Origin: Clostridia bacterium
Lineage (GTDB): Bacteria > Bacillota > Clostridia > Acetivibrionales > DSM-2933
Direction of reading: 5' to 3'
Assembly: GCA_026418275.1 (NCBI GenBank)
Contig: JAOABQ010000028.1
Span: 1 to 64,000 of the forward strand
DNA: 64,000 nucleotides
The position numbers and the translations under genes were made by a program. The notes under the pieces are model-generated. The model worked only from the letters and a program-made list of their open reading frames with translations. It ran no database searches and was not told where the DNA came from. Below are positions 19,826 to 27,478 of the stretch, piece after piece. The stretch's first letter is position 1. Each line of letters opens with the position of its first letter.

Positions 19826-19975
19826 TTGTGTTTTATTTATGATGATAGATTATTTGAGGATGCACCTCAGGATGCGTTAAAAGCTTACAGAATATTTATA
19901 AATAAAGCTAATGACAATGGTGAGGATATACATTTCCTACAAAAGGAGGTAAAGGCTATAACATTAGCCAAATAA
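19826..19975 (+). other. short open frame in frame with, and just upstream of, the AAA gene
   Basis: An open frame with protein-like composition (DRLFEDAPQDALKAYRIF, NGEDIHFLQKEV) ends at TAA 19973-19975. This is three bases before, and in the same frame as, the AAA start at 19979. The only clear upstream start (TTG 19793) lies in the promoter; a TTG at 19826 is possible but has no ribosome site. It may be a translated leader peptide coupled to the ATPase, or an N-terminal extension cut off by the stop. Low confidence as a gene. Confidence 0.3.
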
Positions 19976-19978
19976 AAA

Positions 19979-21616
19979 ATGTGGTATCATGAGTTTTTAA
20001 ATAAATATAAAGCAGGAATTTCCCATGAGTTTTTGTTAAACTTCAATGTGCGTGATCTGGTAGACAATTGCAGGTATATCGACCGGTTTTTATATGAAGA
20101 ATTCATAAAGCAAAGAAACTTTGGAATTGTGGCCTTTTATGATATTTCAACAGGGCTCACATTCCTTGAACCGGGAATGGAAAAAGAGTTTAACATGATT
20201 ACCAACAATAAGGCAGCCGAATTGGTTTATTCTCTCCCGTCCAAAATTTTTCCCTATATCGATATGGCTTTAAAAAATACGAAAACCATATTGTTTATAA
20301 ACCATATCGAAAAGATTATCCCTTCCGGGGATATCGGAAGCATGTCCATTGAAGAGCGCATGGCCCTCATATGGCTTAGTGAATGGTCCATCAGCCCCAA
20401 GATTTCGACTGTTGGAAGCACCATCATTATGATGACGGACAATATCGCCGATGTGAGCCGTGAAATTTTAAAATCATCCTATAAGGTGGAGCCTATCTTG
20501 GTGGAGCTTCCGGGTGAACAGGAACGGAAAACGTATATTGAGCATCTTTTGAAGGATAATAAAGTAAGGATGGATCTCACAACCGATGAGTTCGCAAAGC
20601 TTTCATCCGGGCTCAGCAAAAAGTCAATCAAGGATATCAAGCTGAAGGCGGAAGCGGAAGAGGTTCCCATCAGCTTTGAATTCATTAAGGAGAAGAAACA
20701 TTCCGTACTGAAGAAGGAATACGGTGATGTTTTGGAGTTTATATATCCTGAAATCGGGTTTGAGGATATTGGGGGAATGGATAAGGCAAAAAACTATCTA
20801 CTTAAGAATATTGTCGAGCCTATAAAAAAGAACGACTTGAGAAGAGTTCCAATGGGAATACTTTTATGTGGGCCCTCCGGGACGGGTAAGACCCTTTTGG
20901 TGAATGCACTGGCAAAATCCAGCGGATTTAATTGTGTAAAGATTGATATGTCAAGAATATTGGGTCAATATGTAGGTGAGAGTGAAAAGAATTTTAAAAA
21001 ATGTTTGTTGGGAGCACAGTCCCAGCAGCCGGTGATTGTGTTTGTAGACGAGATTGATACCACTTTCAGGAGAGGCGACAGCGGCGATCACGGAGTCAGC
21101 CGGAATATATTTAGTGAATTTTTACAGTTTGCAAGTAATACAAATAATAGAGGAAAGGTTATTTTTATCGCGGCGACCAACCGACCCGATTTATTGGATG
21201 CAGCCCTTAAGAGGGCAGGGCGGTTTGACAAAAAAATACCGATTTTAATGCCGGAAGAAAAGGAACGGGCAGAAATCTTCAGAATTATTATTGAAAAGTA
21301 TAAATTTACTACCGATATCACTGATTTTATGCCTTTTGCACAGACCGCAGAAAATTATACGGGAGCAGAAATCGAAACTGTTGTGAGAAAGGCGTATGAA
21401 ATTGCATGTGAAAGGGAACTGCCCGAAAGCATGATAACTTCTGATGTGCTTAACCAGGCGATAGGGAAATGCAGACCAAGCACAAAGCAGATAGAGTTTA
21501 TGACTATGCTGGCGGTCAATGAGTGTGATGATAAGGATTTGCTTCCGGATCAATATAAGGACTTGATTGATGACAGAGAACGGTTGGAGGAACTGCTTCA
21601 AGAGCAGCTTCTTTAA
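19979..21616 (+). CDS. Cdc48-like AAA ATPase, partner of PspA
   Basis: 545 residues. Residues 1-230 have an AAA-like layout without a Walker A (FLLNFNVRD, TILFINHIEKI, IIMMTDNIADV), so this is a degenerate first module. Residues about 240-490 form an active AAA module: IGFEDIGGMD entry, Walker A GPSGTGKT, Walker B VIVFVDEID, sensor IAATNRPD and arginine fingers ALKRAGRFD. An acidic C-terminus follows. The only nearby start, ATG 19979, lacks a close ribosome site; AAAGGAGGT lies about 28 bases upstream. PspA and a membrane coiled-coil gene follow. The probable role is remodelling of PspA/ESCRT-III-like assemblies at the membrane. Confidence 0.9.
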   Translation: MWYHEFLNKYKAGISHEFLLNFNVRDLVDNCRYIDRFLYEEFIKQRNFGIVAFYDISTGLTFLEPGMEKEFNMITNNKAAELVYSLPSKIFPYIDMALKNTKTILFINHIEKIIPSGDIGSMSIEERMALIWLSEWSISPKISTVGSTIIMMTDNIADVSREILKSSYKVEPILVELPGEQERKTYIEHLLKDNKVRMDLTTDEFAKLSSGLSKKSIKDIKLKAEAEEVPISFEFIKEKKHSVLKKEYGDVLEFIYPEIGFEDIGGMDKAKNYLLKNIVEPIKKNDLRRVPMGILLCGPSGTGKTLLVNALAKSSGFNCVKIDMSRILGQYVGESEKNFKKCLLGAQSQQPVIVFVDEIDTTFRRGDSGDHGVSRNIFSEFLQFASNTNNRGKVIFIAATNRPDLLDAALKRAGRFDKKIPILMPEEKERAEIFRIIIEKYKFTTDITDFMPFAQTAENYTGAEIETVVRKAYEIACERELPESMITSDVLNQAIGKCRPSTKQIEFMTMLAVNECDDKDLLPDQYKDLIDDRERLEELLQEQLL

Positions 21617-21664
21617 CAAAATGAGGGTTTACAAGGAAGATGATTTATTATAAATTATTCTTAT

Positions 21665-21693
21665 AAGACAAAAGGAGTTATTTTACGTATAAT
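21665..21693 (+). promoter_or_regulatory. promoter of pspA
   Basis: AAGACA, 17 bp, then a perfect TATAAT at 21688-21693. It lies in the 185-bp gap between the ATPase and pspA, so pspA may also be transcribed separately. Confidence 0.45.
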
Positions 21694-21801
21694 AGTTTGA
21701 ATATGCAAATTGCAATACTTAAGCAGCAGTTTTACAAATTAAAAGAAGTAAAACGGTAAAGTTTTAAAAATATAGCAGATCATGATGAGGGAGGCAATTT
21801 T

Positions 21802-22530
21802 ATGGGTTTTTTTAACAGGCTTGGTTCTTTAATGAGAGGTTTTTTCGGGTTATTTATAGGGGGACTGGAGGATCGGAATCCGGAAGCTTTATTTGAAGAT
21901 ATAAAAATTCAAATCGAAAAGGCAAGAAAAGAAGCAGAGCATCAGATTATTGAAATTCAGACCAATGCTGAGCTTATCAAGATAGAAATGAAGAATGCGG
22001 AAAAGAACTTAAATGCCATCAAGGCGAGGGTTGAAGCTGCTCAAAGGCAAGGTGCCAGGGATATCTTAATTGAGCTTTTAATGCAGGAGGAAGAATATCA
22101 GACTGTATACGATACACATAAGGCTACGTATGACAGTGCAATGGCAGAGGTAGCGAAGATTCGTGAAGACTATAAAATATTTGAATCTGAAATGAGTGCG
22201 AAGCTGAACGAATTGAAGACACTGAAATCCCAGGCAAAGATGGCTATGCTGAGGGAAAATATCAATTCGGTAAACGCAAAATACACTTCTAAAAACAACC
22301 GGGTAGGCGCTCTGAACGATACCATGGACAGAGCAAGGGAGATTGTAAATAAGAAAACCGCCCGGGCCAACGCGATTGAATCCTTAAATGACAACAATAT
22401 GGAAATGAAGCTTAAACGGTTGGATATGAATTCAGCCAGAGACAGGGCCCGTGCGAGAGCAGAAGCAATGCTTGCGGGAGAACAGGGCTTTGAAGTCAAG
22501 GAAAAAATTGAAAATAAGACTTCCATCTAG
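21802..22530 (+). CDS. pspA: PspA/IM30 (Vipp1) family membrane-maintenance protein
   Basis: 242 residues starting at ATG 21802 behind GAGGGAGG. An amphipathic N-terminal helix (FFNRLGSLMRGFFGLF) is followed by an almost entirely helical, coiled-coil body with the usual PspA features: a NPEALFEDIKIQIEKAR segment near 30-48, then long Glu/Lys/Arg/Gln helices to about 225. There is no signal peptide. Family members form ESCRT-III-like polymers on stressed membranes. Length matches Gram-positive PspA/LiaH. The neighbouring AAA ATPase and membrane coiled-coil protein are probably functional partners. Confidence 0.93.
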   Translation: MGFFNRLGSLMRGFFGLFIGGLEDRNPEALFEDIKIQIEKARKEAEHQIIEIQTNAELIKIEMKNAEKNLNAIKARVEAAQRQGARDILIELLMQEEEYQTVYDTHKATYDSAMAEVAKIREDYKIFESEMSAKLNELKTLKSQAKMAMLRENINSVNAKYTSKNNRVGALNDTMDRAREIVNKKTARANAIESLNDNNMEMKLKRLDMNSARDRARARAEAMLAGEQGFEVKEKIENKTSI

Positions 22531-22585
22531 TCTAAAATAAGAATGATTACTTTTTAAACTGGAATATGTTGATGTAGGAGTTGCT

Positions 22586-23365
22586 ATGAAGTTAAAAATG
22601 ATTGTCAGCGCACTATTAAATTTAAGAAATATCCTTTTATTTTTCCTGGGATTATTTGCTGCAGGTCCTGTTGCAAATCTTCATCCACCGGAATTGGTTT
22701 TGTTTGCTGCTCTTTCCATATACCTTACCGGAGCTATACAGTCCCTTTCCAGCAAGAAGTTTCACGAGAATTTTAACCGCAAACAAAAGATCAAGCAGAT
22801 CAGGGAGCTTAACAATAACTGCTTGAAGCTTACTCATGAAGCGAAAAAATATGTAAACGCGGCTTATTACCAAAAACTTCAAAAGGTTATTCAGGATAAA
22901 AATGAAATTTTAAGTTCATTTTTTAAAGGGGAGAGAAATTATCTTAAAGAGCGAGTCGTTGAGCAGACTTTAAACCTGGTTGGAGCTTATGTGAAGCTGC
23001 TCACAAATTTTTGTATGCGCAGTAAGGAGCTTAGTAATATGGATGTGACCATGGTTACTGAAAGAATCAACACGAACACAAGAAAGCTCAGTTTTGTAAA
23101 AGATCCTTTAGCGGCGGAAGATTTACAGAAAATTGTGGATATGGATCAAAGGATTATTCAAAGACTTAAAGAAGAGCGGACGGACCTGGAAAGAATCGAT
23201 ATGAAGCTTGATTATATGGCAAGTACGGTCAATATGTTTAAACACCAGATATTATCCAGCATTGAAACCCAGGATATGCTGGAGACACTGGAGACTGCTG
23301 TCAATGAGGCAACCGCACTGGATAATGTACTTGGTGAAAGGCGAAGAAATAGAATCAATGCATAA
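22586..23365 (+). CDS. membrane-anchored coiled-coil protein of the PspA module
   Basis: 259 residues starting at ATG 22586 after GTAGGAG, 55 bp after pspA. Two hydrophobic segments (about 12-30 and 36-55, LLFFLGLFAAGPVANL and LVLFAALSIYLTGAI) form a hairpin anchor. The remainder is a cytoplasmic helical domain with heptad-like charge (KQIRELNNNCLKLTHEAKK, DLERIDMKLDYMAS). I recognise no named family. Its order after the ATPase and PspA, and the terminator right behind it, mark it as the third member of the module, perhaps the membrane receptor for PspA. Confidence 0.7.
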   Translation: MKLKMIVSALLNLRNILLFFLGLFAAGPVANLHPPELVLFAALSIYLTGAIQSLSSKKFHENFNRKQKIKQIRELNNNCLKLTHEAKKYVNAAYYQKLQKVIQDKNEILSSFFKGERNYLKERVVEQTLNLVGAYVKLLTNFCMRSKELSNMDVTMVTERINTNTRKLSFVKDPLAAEDLQKIVDMDQRIIQRLKEERTDLERIDMKLDYMASTVNMFKHQILSSIETQDMLETLETAVNEATALDNVLGERRRNRINA

Positions 23366-23380: not shown

Positions 23381-23418
23381 AAAGCTGCTGGTGATTTTTA
23401 TCATTCAGCAGTTTTTTT
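23381..23418 (+). terminator. terminator of the AAA-PspA module
   Basis: GCTGCTG-GTGAT pairs with ATCA-T-CAGCAG and is followed by seven T. Confidence 0.75.
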
Positions 23419-23937: not shown

Positions 23938-25527
23938 ATGCAGCGAGATGTTATATTCTCATCTGAACATGTTATTATAACCAAAATGGCAGACGGGTTT
24001 TATATTGAGTCCTTTAAGGCAGGCATGACAGTAGATCAGTTCAACAAGCTGATGACACAGCATCCGGAAATAAAAATCAGCAGCTTTATGGCTATTAAAA
24101 ATGCATTGCTTTTTCCACCCAAACCACCTACAAAGTTCGGGGATGTAAAAGAAAGGGTCTCTATAGAAATTTCTGGAGATGAGTTAAAAGCATATGTAAC
24201 CTTATGTGTAATGGAGTATGAATTTATTGGGGATGCAAAAGTTGCACTGATTAAAGAGGTTTTAAGGAAGCTGGGGGAGTGCGGAGTTGTTTTCGGTGTA
24301 AAACAAGATGTGCTGTTAAATCATTTATGCAATAATAAACAGCTTTTGATTGCCGAAGGGATTCCACCGGAAAATGGAGAAGACTCCAAAGTCAGGATGT
24401 ATGAATTGAAGGATCCTAAGCCTGAGGTAAAGGAAGATGGGAATGTAGATCACTACGAGCTAAACTTAATTAACCGGGTAAATGAAGGGGATTGGCTGGG
24501 AGAAAGAACGGATCCTACGCCGGGAACTCCCGGGAAATCTGTAAAGGGTAACCCAATCGTTCCTCTTCCGGGAAAGAAATACCCGCTGGTGTATGATAAA
24601 AACACTGTTAAGGAAGTGGTTGGAGAGGGTATTACCACTTTGTATGCCGCCATTCACGGGGCTGTTCATTACAGTGGAGATAAAATTGGAGTATCCAACC
24701 ATCTTGAAATAACAGGAAATATCGATTTTAAGACAGGAAATGTGGATTTTGACGGATATTTAACCGTAAAAGGATCTGTTGAGGATAGCTTTTCTGTTGT
24801 TGCGGATAAAGACATTGAGATTCTTGGAGTTTATGGTGTAGGCAGTGTCCGTGAAATCGTCAGTAGAGAAGGACGGGTATATATTAAAGGCGGAATTGCC
24901 GGTAAAAATAAAGCAGTTGTGAAATCAAGAAAAGACATCTATACGAAATTTGTATCCGATGCAACCATCATTTGTGAAGGGAGTGTACACATAGGGTTTT
25001 ACTGTTTAAACAGCAATATTCAAGCAAAGGAAGTAATCCTTGAATCCCCCAAGGGGCAGATCATTGGGGGGAAAATTGAGGCCGAAATAAAGGTCATTTC
25101 ATCCATCTTTGGTTCGGCAAGCGAAAAACGGACGCATATTATTGTGAAGGGATTTGACCGGGAGGTTTTAAAAGAACGGCTGGAAAAGCTTATTACCAAG
25201 ATTGAACATGTCAAGGGTGACTTGACAAGGTGTAAGCAGGAGATCTCCATTTACTCAAATACCAATAGCTTGACAAGAGAACAGCATAACGCATATGAAC
25301 GTTTGAAGGAAAGATTTTATGAGGTGAAAGACGATTTGAAATCGTTGGAAGATGATAGGAAGTCCCTTGTCAGTTATTTAAGGACAAAAGGAGAAGGTGA
25401 AGTTTCAATTTTAAAAAAAGCATATCCCAATACTTTGATAGAGATTAAGAAAAACGTAAAAGAAATAGACAAGGTTGTAATTGGTCTAAGCTACTATGTC
25501 CAGGATAGTGAAATGAAAGAATTATAA
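23938..25527 (+). CDS. FapA family protein (DUF342)
   Basis: 529 residues starting at ATG 23938 with GTGGGG upstream. The N-terminal 170 residues form a mixed domain. A Gly-rich segment (PGTPGKSVKGNPI) leads into a right-handed beta-helix-like core at about 240-400, with repeated Ile/Val-Gly units (VDFDGYLTVKGSV, EILGVYGVGSV, GRVYIKGGIAG) that define the DUF342/FapA family. The final 120 residues form a charged coiled coil (EVLKERLEKLITKIEHVK). FapA-type proteins act as polymerising scaffolds or in flagellar and polar organisation in some bacteria. It is followed at 20 bp by a GAF-repeat gene, probably an operon. Confidence 0.87.
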   Translation: MQRDVIFSSEHVIITKMADGFYIESFKAGMTVDQFNKLMTQHPEIKISSFMAIKNALLFPPKPPTKFGDVKERVSIEISGDELKAYVTLCVMEYEFIGDAKVALIKEVLRKLGECGVVFGVKQDVLLNHLCNNKQLLIAEGIPPENGEDSKVRMYELKDPKPEVKEDGNVDHYELNLINRVNEGDWLGERTDPTPGTPGKSVKGNPIVPLPGKKYPLVYDKNTVKEVVGEGITTLYAAIHGAVHYSGDKIGVSNHLEITGNIDFKTGNVDFDGYLTVKGSVEDSFSVVADKDIEILGVYGVGSVREIVSREGRVYIKGGIAGKNKAVVKSRKDIYTKFVSDATIICEGSVHIGFYCLNSNIQAKEVILESPKGQIIGGKIEAEIKVISSIFGSASEKRTHIIVKGFDREVLKERLEKLITKIEHVKGDLTRCKQEISIYSNTNSLTREQHNAYERLKERFYEVKDDLKSLEDDRKSLVSYLRTKGEGEVSILKKAYPNTLIEIKKNVKEIDKVVIGLSYYVQDSEMKEL

Positions 25528-25546
25528 TCTCACGGGAGGACGGTAT

Positions 25547-27478
25547 ATGGAATATAATTCAATTTTGAAACGGATTGAAGAACAGAAGAAGGAAGAAAAT
25601 CTTTCTACAAAGTTATTCCGGTACACAGGATTAATACAAGCCATTGAGTTCTTTTCACAGAAGCTCAACCTTGACCAAATTATTGAGGCTTCATTCGATT
25701 TTGTAAATGAATTGCTTACCCTTGAAAAATCGGCAATCTTTACGTTGAATCACAATAATTATATCCTTAAAAAGGTAAAAGGCTATGTAGATACCGAGAT
25801 TACGCTTGTGAAGAACACTCAGGAAATCCAGAATATTGCCGTATTTCACGGGACCTTGCTGTACGAAAGAGAAAGCATGGAGAAATACTTTGAAAGTGCG
25901 GTCCTGGATGCCTTTACAGTTACGGCAATTATTCCGTTGATTATTGAAAACAGCCTGTTTGGCTTTATATTTATATCCAGTAAAGCTGCTGGAGAAATAA
26001 ATAGTGACGATTACATCATTTCGGAAGCACTTATGAAGCTTTTTAACAACGCACTTGAAAACTATAAACGTTTCGAGGACTTGCAAAAGGCCAATAGGGA
26101 ATTAGATGAAAAGATTTTCAATCTCTTCGCAATCAACCAATCCTCCAAAGCGCTTCTAAGCGAACTAAGTCTGGATGTTCTTTATAATCTTTCCATTGAC
26201 GTGTTTTCCGAACTAACCCAAAGCTCCTCAACGGGATTTGTGCTCTTTGATGATAAAGTCGATAAATATGTATTGAAGGCATTTAAAGATATTCATTACA
26301 GTGAACCGGACTCGCTTTTTGGGCTTACTTCCAATAAAGGGGCACGGGTGGACACGAATAAACTTATTGTGGATGTGACAAATGAAGGAGATATACTGTA
26401 TTTCAATAACCTATTCATTGAAGGGATTGAAAAGCTGAACTCTTTAAATGCGAAGTATGTTGTGATGCTGATTAAAGGAGGAAAAATTCTGGGATTTGTT
26501 ACATTGGGACAATCTGTAACAGGGAGCAGCTATAAAAAAAGCATCTTTGAATTAATTGAAAGTTTGGCTTCCGCAACATTTATAGCTCTTTCCAATGCAC
26601 AGCTTTTTAAACAGGTAAATGAGCAAAAGAAAATCATCCAGTCAAAGCTTGAAAAGCTGGTTTCACTCAACAAACTTATGAGGAATATCAATAGTTCGCT
26701 CAAACTGGAAACCCTCCTTGATTTAACTTTAAAGACCTTGGAAATCTCCTTTGATGTAGAAAAGGCGCTAATTGCTTTGTATGATAAAGAAAAGGATTCT
26801 TTTAACATTACAAATACAATTAATTTCAGCACCAAGAAAAGAGATATCAAGCCCAATGAAAACTGGAAAAAGGTTTTCGAAGGAGATACCTTGTTTGAAA
26901 CAAAAGGGGAAAGCGTACAAAAATATTTTAGCAGTACTTTGTTAAATGATGTGGGAACAAGTCAAGGGATGCTTATATTTCCCATTTGTATTGATAGGGT
27001 GGACGTTGAAATGCTTGGGGTGATTATTGTATTTAAATATTATAAACTGCCTATTGGTGATGAAGAAAGCATCCTCACACTGGAGACCATTTCAGGACAT
27101 ATTGCACCTGTTGTCGGAAATTTATACACCATAGAAGAGCAAAAGAGGTTCCTATTGCCCAATTACATTGAACTGTTTAAAAGGGACTTAAAGAATGACA
27201 TCAAGGAAGCACAGGAGCTATCTCTGGATCTTCAAGTTATACAGATTAGCGATGAGCGTAAGTGCATCTTTAAAGGAAGTTCCATTGTGGATAAGCTGGG
27301 AAGTAATTTTAAGAGAGTTTACCCTTTCTCCAATAACCATATATTCATTGTGATCAATGATAATAAGGACTATGAAAAAGAGATCCGGAAAGCAGCGGGC
27401 CTAAAAGAGGTTATAGTCCGAAGGTTGGTTTTAAATCAGGATTTCCATAACTACCAGGAATTTTTTAAGCTGTTTTAG
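25547..27478 (+). CDS. multi-GAF domain protein without output domain
   Basis: 643 residues starting at ATG 25547 after GGGAGG. Three GAF-like units can be traced: about 35-175 (LDQIIEASFDFVNELLTLEKSAIF), about 200-350 (LSLDVLYNLSIDVFSEL) and about 385-530 (LETLLDLTLKTLEISFDVEKALI), separated by helical linkers. The last ~110 residues are a small alpha/beta domain of unknown type. No kinase, GGDEF, EAL, phosphatase or DNA-binding motif is present and there is no membrane segment. It is a soluble sensor that probably passes its signal by protein contact, perhaps to the FapA protein encoded just upstream. Confidence 0.75.
   Translation: MEYNSILKRIEEQKKEENLSTKLFRYTGLIQAIEFFSQKLNLDQIIEASFDFVNELLTLEKSAIFTLNHNNYILKKVKGYVDTEITLVKNTQEIQNIAVFHGTLLYERESMEKYFESAVLDAFTVTAIIPLIIENSLFGFIFISSKAAGEINSDDYIISEALMKLFNNALENYKRFEDLQKANRELDEKIFNLFAINQSSKALLSELSLDVLYNLSIDVFSELTQSSSTGFVLFDDKVDKYVLKAFKDIHYSEPDSLFGLTSNKGARVDTNKLIVDVTNEGDILYFNNLFIEGIEKLNSLNAKYVVMLIKGGKILGFVTLGQSVTGSSYKKSIFELIESLASATFIALSNAQLFKQVNEQKKIIQSKLEKLVSLNKLMRNINSSLKLETLLDLTLKTLEISFDVEKALIALYDKEKDSFNITNTINFSTKKRDIKPNENWKKVFEGDTLFETKGESVQKYFSSTLLNDVGTSQGMLIFPICIDRVDVEMLGVIIVFKYYKLPIGDEESILTLETISGHIAPVVGNLYTIEEQKRFLLPNYIELFKRDLKNDIKEAQELSLDLQVIQISDERKCIFKGSSIVDKLGSNFKRVYPFSNNHIFIVINDNKDYEKEIRKAAGLKEVIVRRLVLNQDFHNYQEFFKLF

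Follow-up and report, generated by a model that had tools for sequence, protein, structure and literature searches.

Only archaea and eukaryotes have been said to possess ESCRT (endosomal sorting complex required for transport) systems with both components (PMC10936438), and whether a Vps4-like ATPase exists for the bacterial ESCRT-III proteins has been stated as an open question (PMC8281802). The closest described case is found in the main text of Ravi et al. (2024, mSystems, PMC11237479), according to which bacterial PspA co-occurs with a protein that contains two AAA+ domains, the N-terminal one being inactive. For this pair an ATP-dependent membrane remodeling comparable to Snf7-Vps4 was proposed (example PspA AEY64321.1), and operons of PspA, transmembrane (TM)-bearing Snf7-like proteins, AAA+ and PBPB-OmpA proteins are mentioned there as well; the pairing of ATPase and PspA and the analogy to Vps4 are already published there as a prediction. 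In Escherichia coli, both the N-terminal coiled coil and the C-terminal part of PspA bind PspF, an AAA+ protein (PMC6003685). Here, we describe a three-gene operon of a Clostridia bacterium (assembly GCA_026418275.1, contig JAOABQ010000028.1), which is located in a window of 64,000 nucleotides, i.e. the whole stretch of DNA that was analyzed, and encodes a Cdc48-like AAA ATPase, a PspA-like protein and a membrane-anchored helical protein termed TM3.

We read this operon as an ATP-driven system for the turnover of PspA polymers and assign a probability of about 60% to this reading. PspA would coat or tubulate the cell membrane on its inner side, and the AAA protein would assemble as a two-tier hexamer of the Cdc48 type, with a dead scaffold ring formed by the first module (D1) and a working ring with an aromatic threading pore formed by the second module (D2). 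From the sequences, the structural models and comparative genomics we infer that the ATPase most likely captures the conserved tail at the PspA C-terminus (G-F-E-V-K-E-K) and threads the subunit through the D2 pore; this would strip or remodel the polymer in the way that Vps4 acts on ESCRT-III. In the clostridial clade TM3, a membrane-anchored cytoplasmic helical protein, may tether the system to the membrane or position it there, and membrane repair would be the purpose. The features of the operon are as follows:

19979..21616, plus strand: gene of the Cdc48-like two-module AAA ATPase (545 amino acids; dead D1 at about residues 1-255, active D2 at about residues 256-520)
20870..20893, plus strand: D2 Walker A, GPSGTGKT (residues 298-305), invariant alignment columns
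20966..20977, plus strand: D2 pore loop 1, QYVG (residues 330-333), with the aromatic threading residue, invariant in orthologues
21032..21052, plus strand: D2 Walker B, VIVFVDE (residues 352-358), from the orthologue alignment
21802..22530, plus strand: gene of the PspA-like ESCRT-III superfamily protein (242 amino acids)
22486..22506, plus strand: PspA tail motif GFEVKEK (residues 229-235), the proposed handle for the ATPase
22586..23365, plus strand: TM3 gene, two-helix membrane anchor and a helical domain of about 200 amino acids, predicted to be cytoplasmic
22601..22750, plus strand: TM3 membrane hairpin (residues 6-55), from hydropathy; helices at 13-29 and 35-55 in the model
23381..23418, plus strand: intrinsic terminator, hairpin with T run at the operon end, from folding

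ATPase, PspA and TM3 are bound together as a gene set. The first-pass annotation of this DNA, whose coordinates for the three genes proved to be exact, had proposed a survey of the three families, and in an even sample of 291 genomes of the class the same 19 contained TM3, a strong match to the N-terminal ATPase module and the close PspA family, a co-occurrence beyond chance. A wider scan with one genome per species (84,980 species) led to 44 named loci in Acetivibrio, Ruminiclostridium, Pseudobacteroides, Herbivorax, Anaerobacterium and uncultured clostridia. The order AAA-PspA-TM3 is found in 41 of these 44 loci, and one further locus stops at a contig edge. The published example AEY64321.1 comes presumably from a relative of Ruminiclostridium and would represent the same clade. 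In two metagenome-assembled genomes (G002, G057) the ATPase gene is present but located apart from PspA-TM3. Of the 58 genomes of the order, ATPase and PspA occur together in 52 and are both missing in four; the two exceptions are G701, in which the ATPase gene runs into the contig end, and G703, which has only a tail-less PspA. Seven other genomes of the class contain eight PspA copies that are more distant (32-41% identical to the PspA of the window in a trimmed alignment), and no ATPase or TM3 was found in these genomes. TM3 was not found in any ATPase-less genome tested; it is an obligate partner within the clostridial clade and does not belong to the operon in a distant lineage.

Two further observations concern the gene neighborhoods. 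In Ruminiclostridium and some relatives (L038, L039, L031, L120, L126, L134, L127), a gene for a GNAT-type acetyltransferase (about 160 amino acids, family assigned by eye) separates PspA from TM3. Several of the distant PspA copies adjoin acpS-like or mscL-like genes, and an acpS-like gene is the neighbor of a PspA gene without tail and ATPase in several families (L103, L104, L105, L106, L107, L203) and in G703, all judged by eye; this context is a second conserved neighborhood of PspA.

The ATPase was initially described as a two-module AAA protein with a first module lacking Walker A and a complete second one, and this description holds. D2 matches the Pfam family AAA (PF00004, residues 294-421, E=3.7e-40) and is complete with Walker A, Walker B, sensor, arginine finger and YVG pore loop. 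An alignment of 19 orthologues with 64-79% identity revealed that GPSGTGKT (298-305), QYVG (330-333), VDE (356-358), N401 and the R412/R415 region are invariant, and the aromatic residue of pore loop 1 is Y or W in distant homologues too. D1 carries NVRDLVDNCR at the position of the P-loop and INH where the DE of Walker B is expected, and both P-loop and catalytic glutamate are also missing in the distant homologues. Foldseek aligned the AlphaFold model (mean predicted local distance difference test score (pLDDT) 76, predicted template modeling score (pTM) 0.53) with the tandem D1-D2 modules of p97/Cdc48, Rix7 and NVL over about 550 columns (E ~1e-23, template modeling score 0.5-0.6), and therefore the first module is a real but degenerate AAA module. 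Cdc48-like proteins also rank first in the PDB sequence-profile search. D1 starts at the N-terminus, so there is no N-terminal double-psi barrel substrate domain, and Pfam revealed neither a MIT domain nor the Vps4 C-terminal domain (Vps4_C) at E<=1. Membership in the Vps4 family was rejected on these domains (two AAA modules, no MIT, no Vps4_C); the protein is a tandem ATPase of the Cdc48 type whose D1 is dead. The idea of a Vps4-ESCRT-III analogue, which goes back to the first-pass annotation, is well supported as a functional analogy by co-occurrence and tail but fails as a family relationship; overall, that interpretation is partly supported. The source genome (5.8 Mb) encodes one full-length copy, and its other matches to the ATPase cover the second AAA module only. 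Weak matches to the N-terminal module in G196 and G016 (25% identity) were discarded as other large AAA proteins without adjoining PspA.

The assignment of the second gene to PspA could be confirmed by a full-length match to PF04012 (positions 2-215 of 220, 30.4 bits, E=3.6e-7), which is slightly below the curated cut-off of 33.9 and points to a divergent sequence. The best PDB profile matches are Vipp1/PspA over residues 1-216 with marginal E-values of 0.007-0.027. Judged by these profiles, the protein is a divergent PspA/IM30 member of the ESCRT-III superfamily, and it is the sole PspA_IM30 match in the source genome. The family shows a conserved MGxFxRxxxxxRGFF segment at the start and a short tail at the end.

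This tail is the main new finding. A PspA motif that docks the ATPase had been suggested as a check, and G-F-E-V-[KR]-E-[KR] is present near the C-terminus in 48 of 48 distinct intact PspA proteins of the ATPase-bearing clostridia examined (GFEVKEK in 46, GFEVKER and GFEVRER in one each). The codons for glycine, valine and the other residues vary freely at synonymous sites while the peptide stays constant, which indicates that selection acts on the peptide; the flanking residues are variable. One species has three tandem copies of the tail (L142/L207), and a DNA pattern search of the source genome yielded a single occurrence, located in PspA, and none in any other gene. In the draft genome of Acetivibrio straminisolvens JCM 21531 PspA is split into two overlapping frames (L131:7008-7732, also L205), which is either a draft error or a broken gene, and the tail is still there. 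The eight distant PspA copies mentioned above are the next-closest ones, and no tail was found in them. In G703 the PspA body is intact (50.9% identity) and ends with ...RAREKAENMLELN immediately ahead of the tail position, and neither ATPase nor TM3 was found in this genome. In a PspA tree calculated without the tail columns the tail-less clade groups with the clostridial ATPase-linked PspA (support 97/95), which would mean a joint loss of tail and ATPase, and in a larger tree the confinement of tail and ATPase to one clade is not rejected (approximately unbiased test, p=0.08). As far as the sequences tell, tail and ATPase change together under either tree.

A second lineage, one family of another class, contains a related pair. 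In G628, G659 and G660 a homologue of the ATPase with 39-41% identity is located about 15-28 nucleotides upstream of a PspA gene (protein 34-36% identical to the PspA of the window), the tail is aligned as GRVVKE[KR], and TM3 was not found. In G657, ATPase and the start of PspA lie at the contig end, and a distant TM3-like gene is located elsewhere, adjoining an OmpA-type protein.

For TM3 a two-helix anchor followed by a long helical domain had been noted, and we could locate the hydrophobic stretches at residues 6-24 and 37-55 and a body of about 200 amino acids, which is all or mostly helical (model pLDDT 85). Positive charge flanks the hairpin on both sides, and by the positive-inside rule both ends are most likely cytoplasmic. 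The model had no Foldseek match below E 0.01 and hit only generic helical bundles and BAR domains. A relationship to PspA/Snf7 is unsupported, as hhalign gave a probability of 0.1% and Foldseek no match, with room left by the shallow alignments. Among 22 members there was no credible match to a known Pfam family such as XpaC, and the best PDB profile match (E=1e-4), which falls on a helical part of DnaI, was judged to reflect helical or coiled-coil similarity. In G112 and G180 the gene that immediately precedes a lone TM3 paralogue encodes an NMT1-type solute-binding protein with a fused OmpA domain, and a third lone paralogue (G159) lies behind an M50-type peptidase. The loci with lone paralogues or relatives behind NMT1 solute-binding/OmpA proteins are L049:5484-7925, L046:9004-11451 and L211:9857-11564 (the partner in L211 by eye). 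The solute-binding/OmpA neighbors of the lone paralogues hint at a coupling of the TM3 family to the cell envelope. The best reading of TM3 is that of a membrane tether specific to the lineage; a role as a membrane receptor, as first proposed, would be a guess.

Several points weigh against polymer turnover as the function of this operon. Other PspA/Vipp1 proteins function without such an ATPase. The genomes G623 and G347 encode ATPase homologues (39% identity), apparently in mobile-element surroundings, and have no PspA of the operon type. A tie to PspA is therefore no inherent property of the ATPase family, which either predates this link or has given it up in other genomes. The correlation of tail and ATPase goes back to few independent events, for which the trees allow either a single gain or between one and three concordant losses, and the tail is by reading unlike the known MIT-interacting motifs (MIM1/MIM2). 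Finally, the gap of 185 nucleotides between the AAA and PspA genes may contain a second promoter. Distant ATPases with dead D1 and without PspA were observed among genes typical of integrative elements (ArdC-like, helix-turn-helix; by eye) at L169:8961-10685 and L170:7404-9203, which may be another use of this ATPase family.

The alternative that survives best is a regulatory one, in which PspA, as adaptor or inhibitor, would keep the ATPase at the stressed membrane, the ATPase would extract or unfold other membrane proteins there and the tail would be a binding tag. The tail data fit this possibility too, the ATPase homologues in genomes without operon-type PspA make other clients possible, and the contact between PspA and PspF in E. 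coli (PMC6003685) is a parallel for PspA as regulator of an ATPase. However, Pfam revealed no DNA-binding or sigma-54 interaction domain above the cut-off in the operon ATPase, and the strictly conserved aromatic pore loop together with a short flexible C-terminal tail suits a threading handle better than a regulator, and we regard this explanation as unlikely.

Somewhat less probable still is that the tail serves polymer geometry, membrane binding or binding of TM3, and that its match with the ATPase reflects shared ancestry. Tail and whole operon have indeed been inherited together with few independent events. Nevertheless, the core G..VKE[KR] is kept in the second lineage, which has the ATPase but no TM3 in the operon, TM3 was not found in three of the four ATPase-bearing genomes of that lineage, and the tail is cut off exactly in G703, where the PspA body persists and ATPase and TM3 are both missing.

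A delivery of PspA to a protease, i.e. regulated degradation instead of polymer recycling, appears very improbable to us. A threading-type D2 with an aromatic pore loop and a short terminal tag resembling a degron would fit such a role, but the ATPase has no protease domain, its variable C-terminus shows by reading no HbYX-type motif for proteasome docking, and among the named families looked for no protease gene belongs to the conserved set. That the genes are mere neighbors without functional link can practically be dismissed: the 185-nucleotide gap would permit separate transcription, but the strict co-occurrence, the order kept over many families, the co-occurrence when unlinked and the joint absence argue against it.

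Returning to ATP-driven turnover of PspA polymers, we consider it slightly better than an even bet that bacteria have independently paired an ESCRT-III protein with a dedicated, Cdc48-derived unfoldase, in which a dead scaffold ring and a C-terminal handle on PspA would be used for recycling. If this is true, the logic of an ATPase-driven ESCRT system extends beyond archaea and eukaryotes. Moreover, a seven-residue tail that appears and vanishes with the ATPase makes the question of a Vps4-like partner simply testable with two purified proteins and one deletion, in clostridia that are harmless and degrade cellulose.

With respect to the surroundings, the terminator that had been noted at the end of the operon is strong (-16.7 kcal/mol, z=-5.3, by folding); the promoter scan had missed it because of a bulged stem, and it was recovered by folding. 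The same scan found 20 promoters versus 16 expected, which is not above chance, and therefore no promoter is claimed. A scan of viral contigs for a phage origin gave no relative, and we found nothing specific in the literature on expression of the operon in Clostridium thermocellum or Ruminiclostridium. Just upstream of the ATPase gene ends a short open stretch, LFEDAPQDALKAYRIFINKANDNGEDIHFLQKEVKAITLAK (by eye; window 19840-19975), which looks like a gene remnant. Downstream of the operon lie the genes of a FapA-type (DUF342) protein and a tandem-GAF protein (window 23938-27478); FapA follows in 17 and the GAF gene in 10 of the 44 named loci, and both may be extended operon partners. Several single-contig chromosomes (contig C1 of G025, G136, G201, G222, G278 and G674) carry the operon at about 25-45 kb, counted from the start of the record, which may be close to the origin of replication, but this position is not universal (G673, G679 and G669 differ).

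In comparison with known systems, the operon resembles ESCRT-III/Vps4 of eukaryotes and the archaeal Cdv system in that the gene of an ESCRT-III superfamily polymer is located next to that of an AAA unfoldase and the polymer subunit carries a C-terminal tail as presumed ATPase handle. It differs in the ATPase, which is a two-module protein of the Cdc48 type without a detectable MIT or Vps4_C domain, in PspA replacing Snf7/CdvB, and in a tail that does not read like MIM1/MIM2. With Cdc48/p97, Rix7 and NVL the ATPase shares the full-length D1-D2 tandem fold and the top PDB sequence matches, whereas the N-terminal substrate-recruiting domain and, in D1, Walker A and the Walker B glutamate are missing. 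In the PspA-PspF system of E. coli PspA also stands beside an AAA+ protein, which is touched by its C-terminal part (PMC6003685), and this may serve by analogy as a precedent for a contact between tail and ATPase; PspF, however, is a sigma-54 transcription activator, unlike the operon ATPase with its tandem AAA modules. The "Snf7 homologs with a TM segment" in the main text of Ravi et al. (PMC11237479, OGG56892.1) are similar to TM3 as TM-anchored helical proteins together with PspA and AAA, and the PBPB-OmpA operons reported there recall the lone TM3 paralogues by NMT1-OmpA proteins, but TM3 has no profile homology to the operon PspA family and no confident fold match. The pair described in the same paper agrees with ours in gene pair, ATPase architecture and functional proposal, whereas its main text describes no conserved PspA tail, obligate third gene, unlinked co-occurrence or joint absence. 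Compared with that main text, the present analysis adds these four, the tracking of the tail with the ATPase and the D1-D2 assignment.

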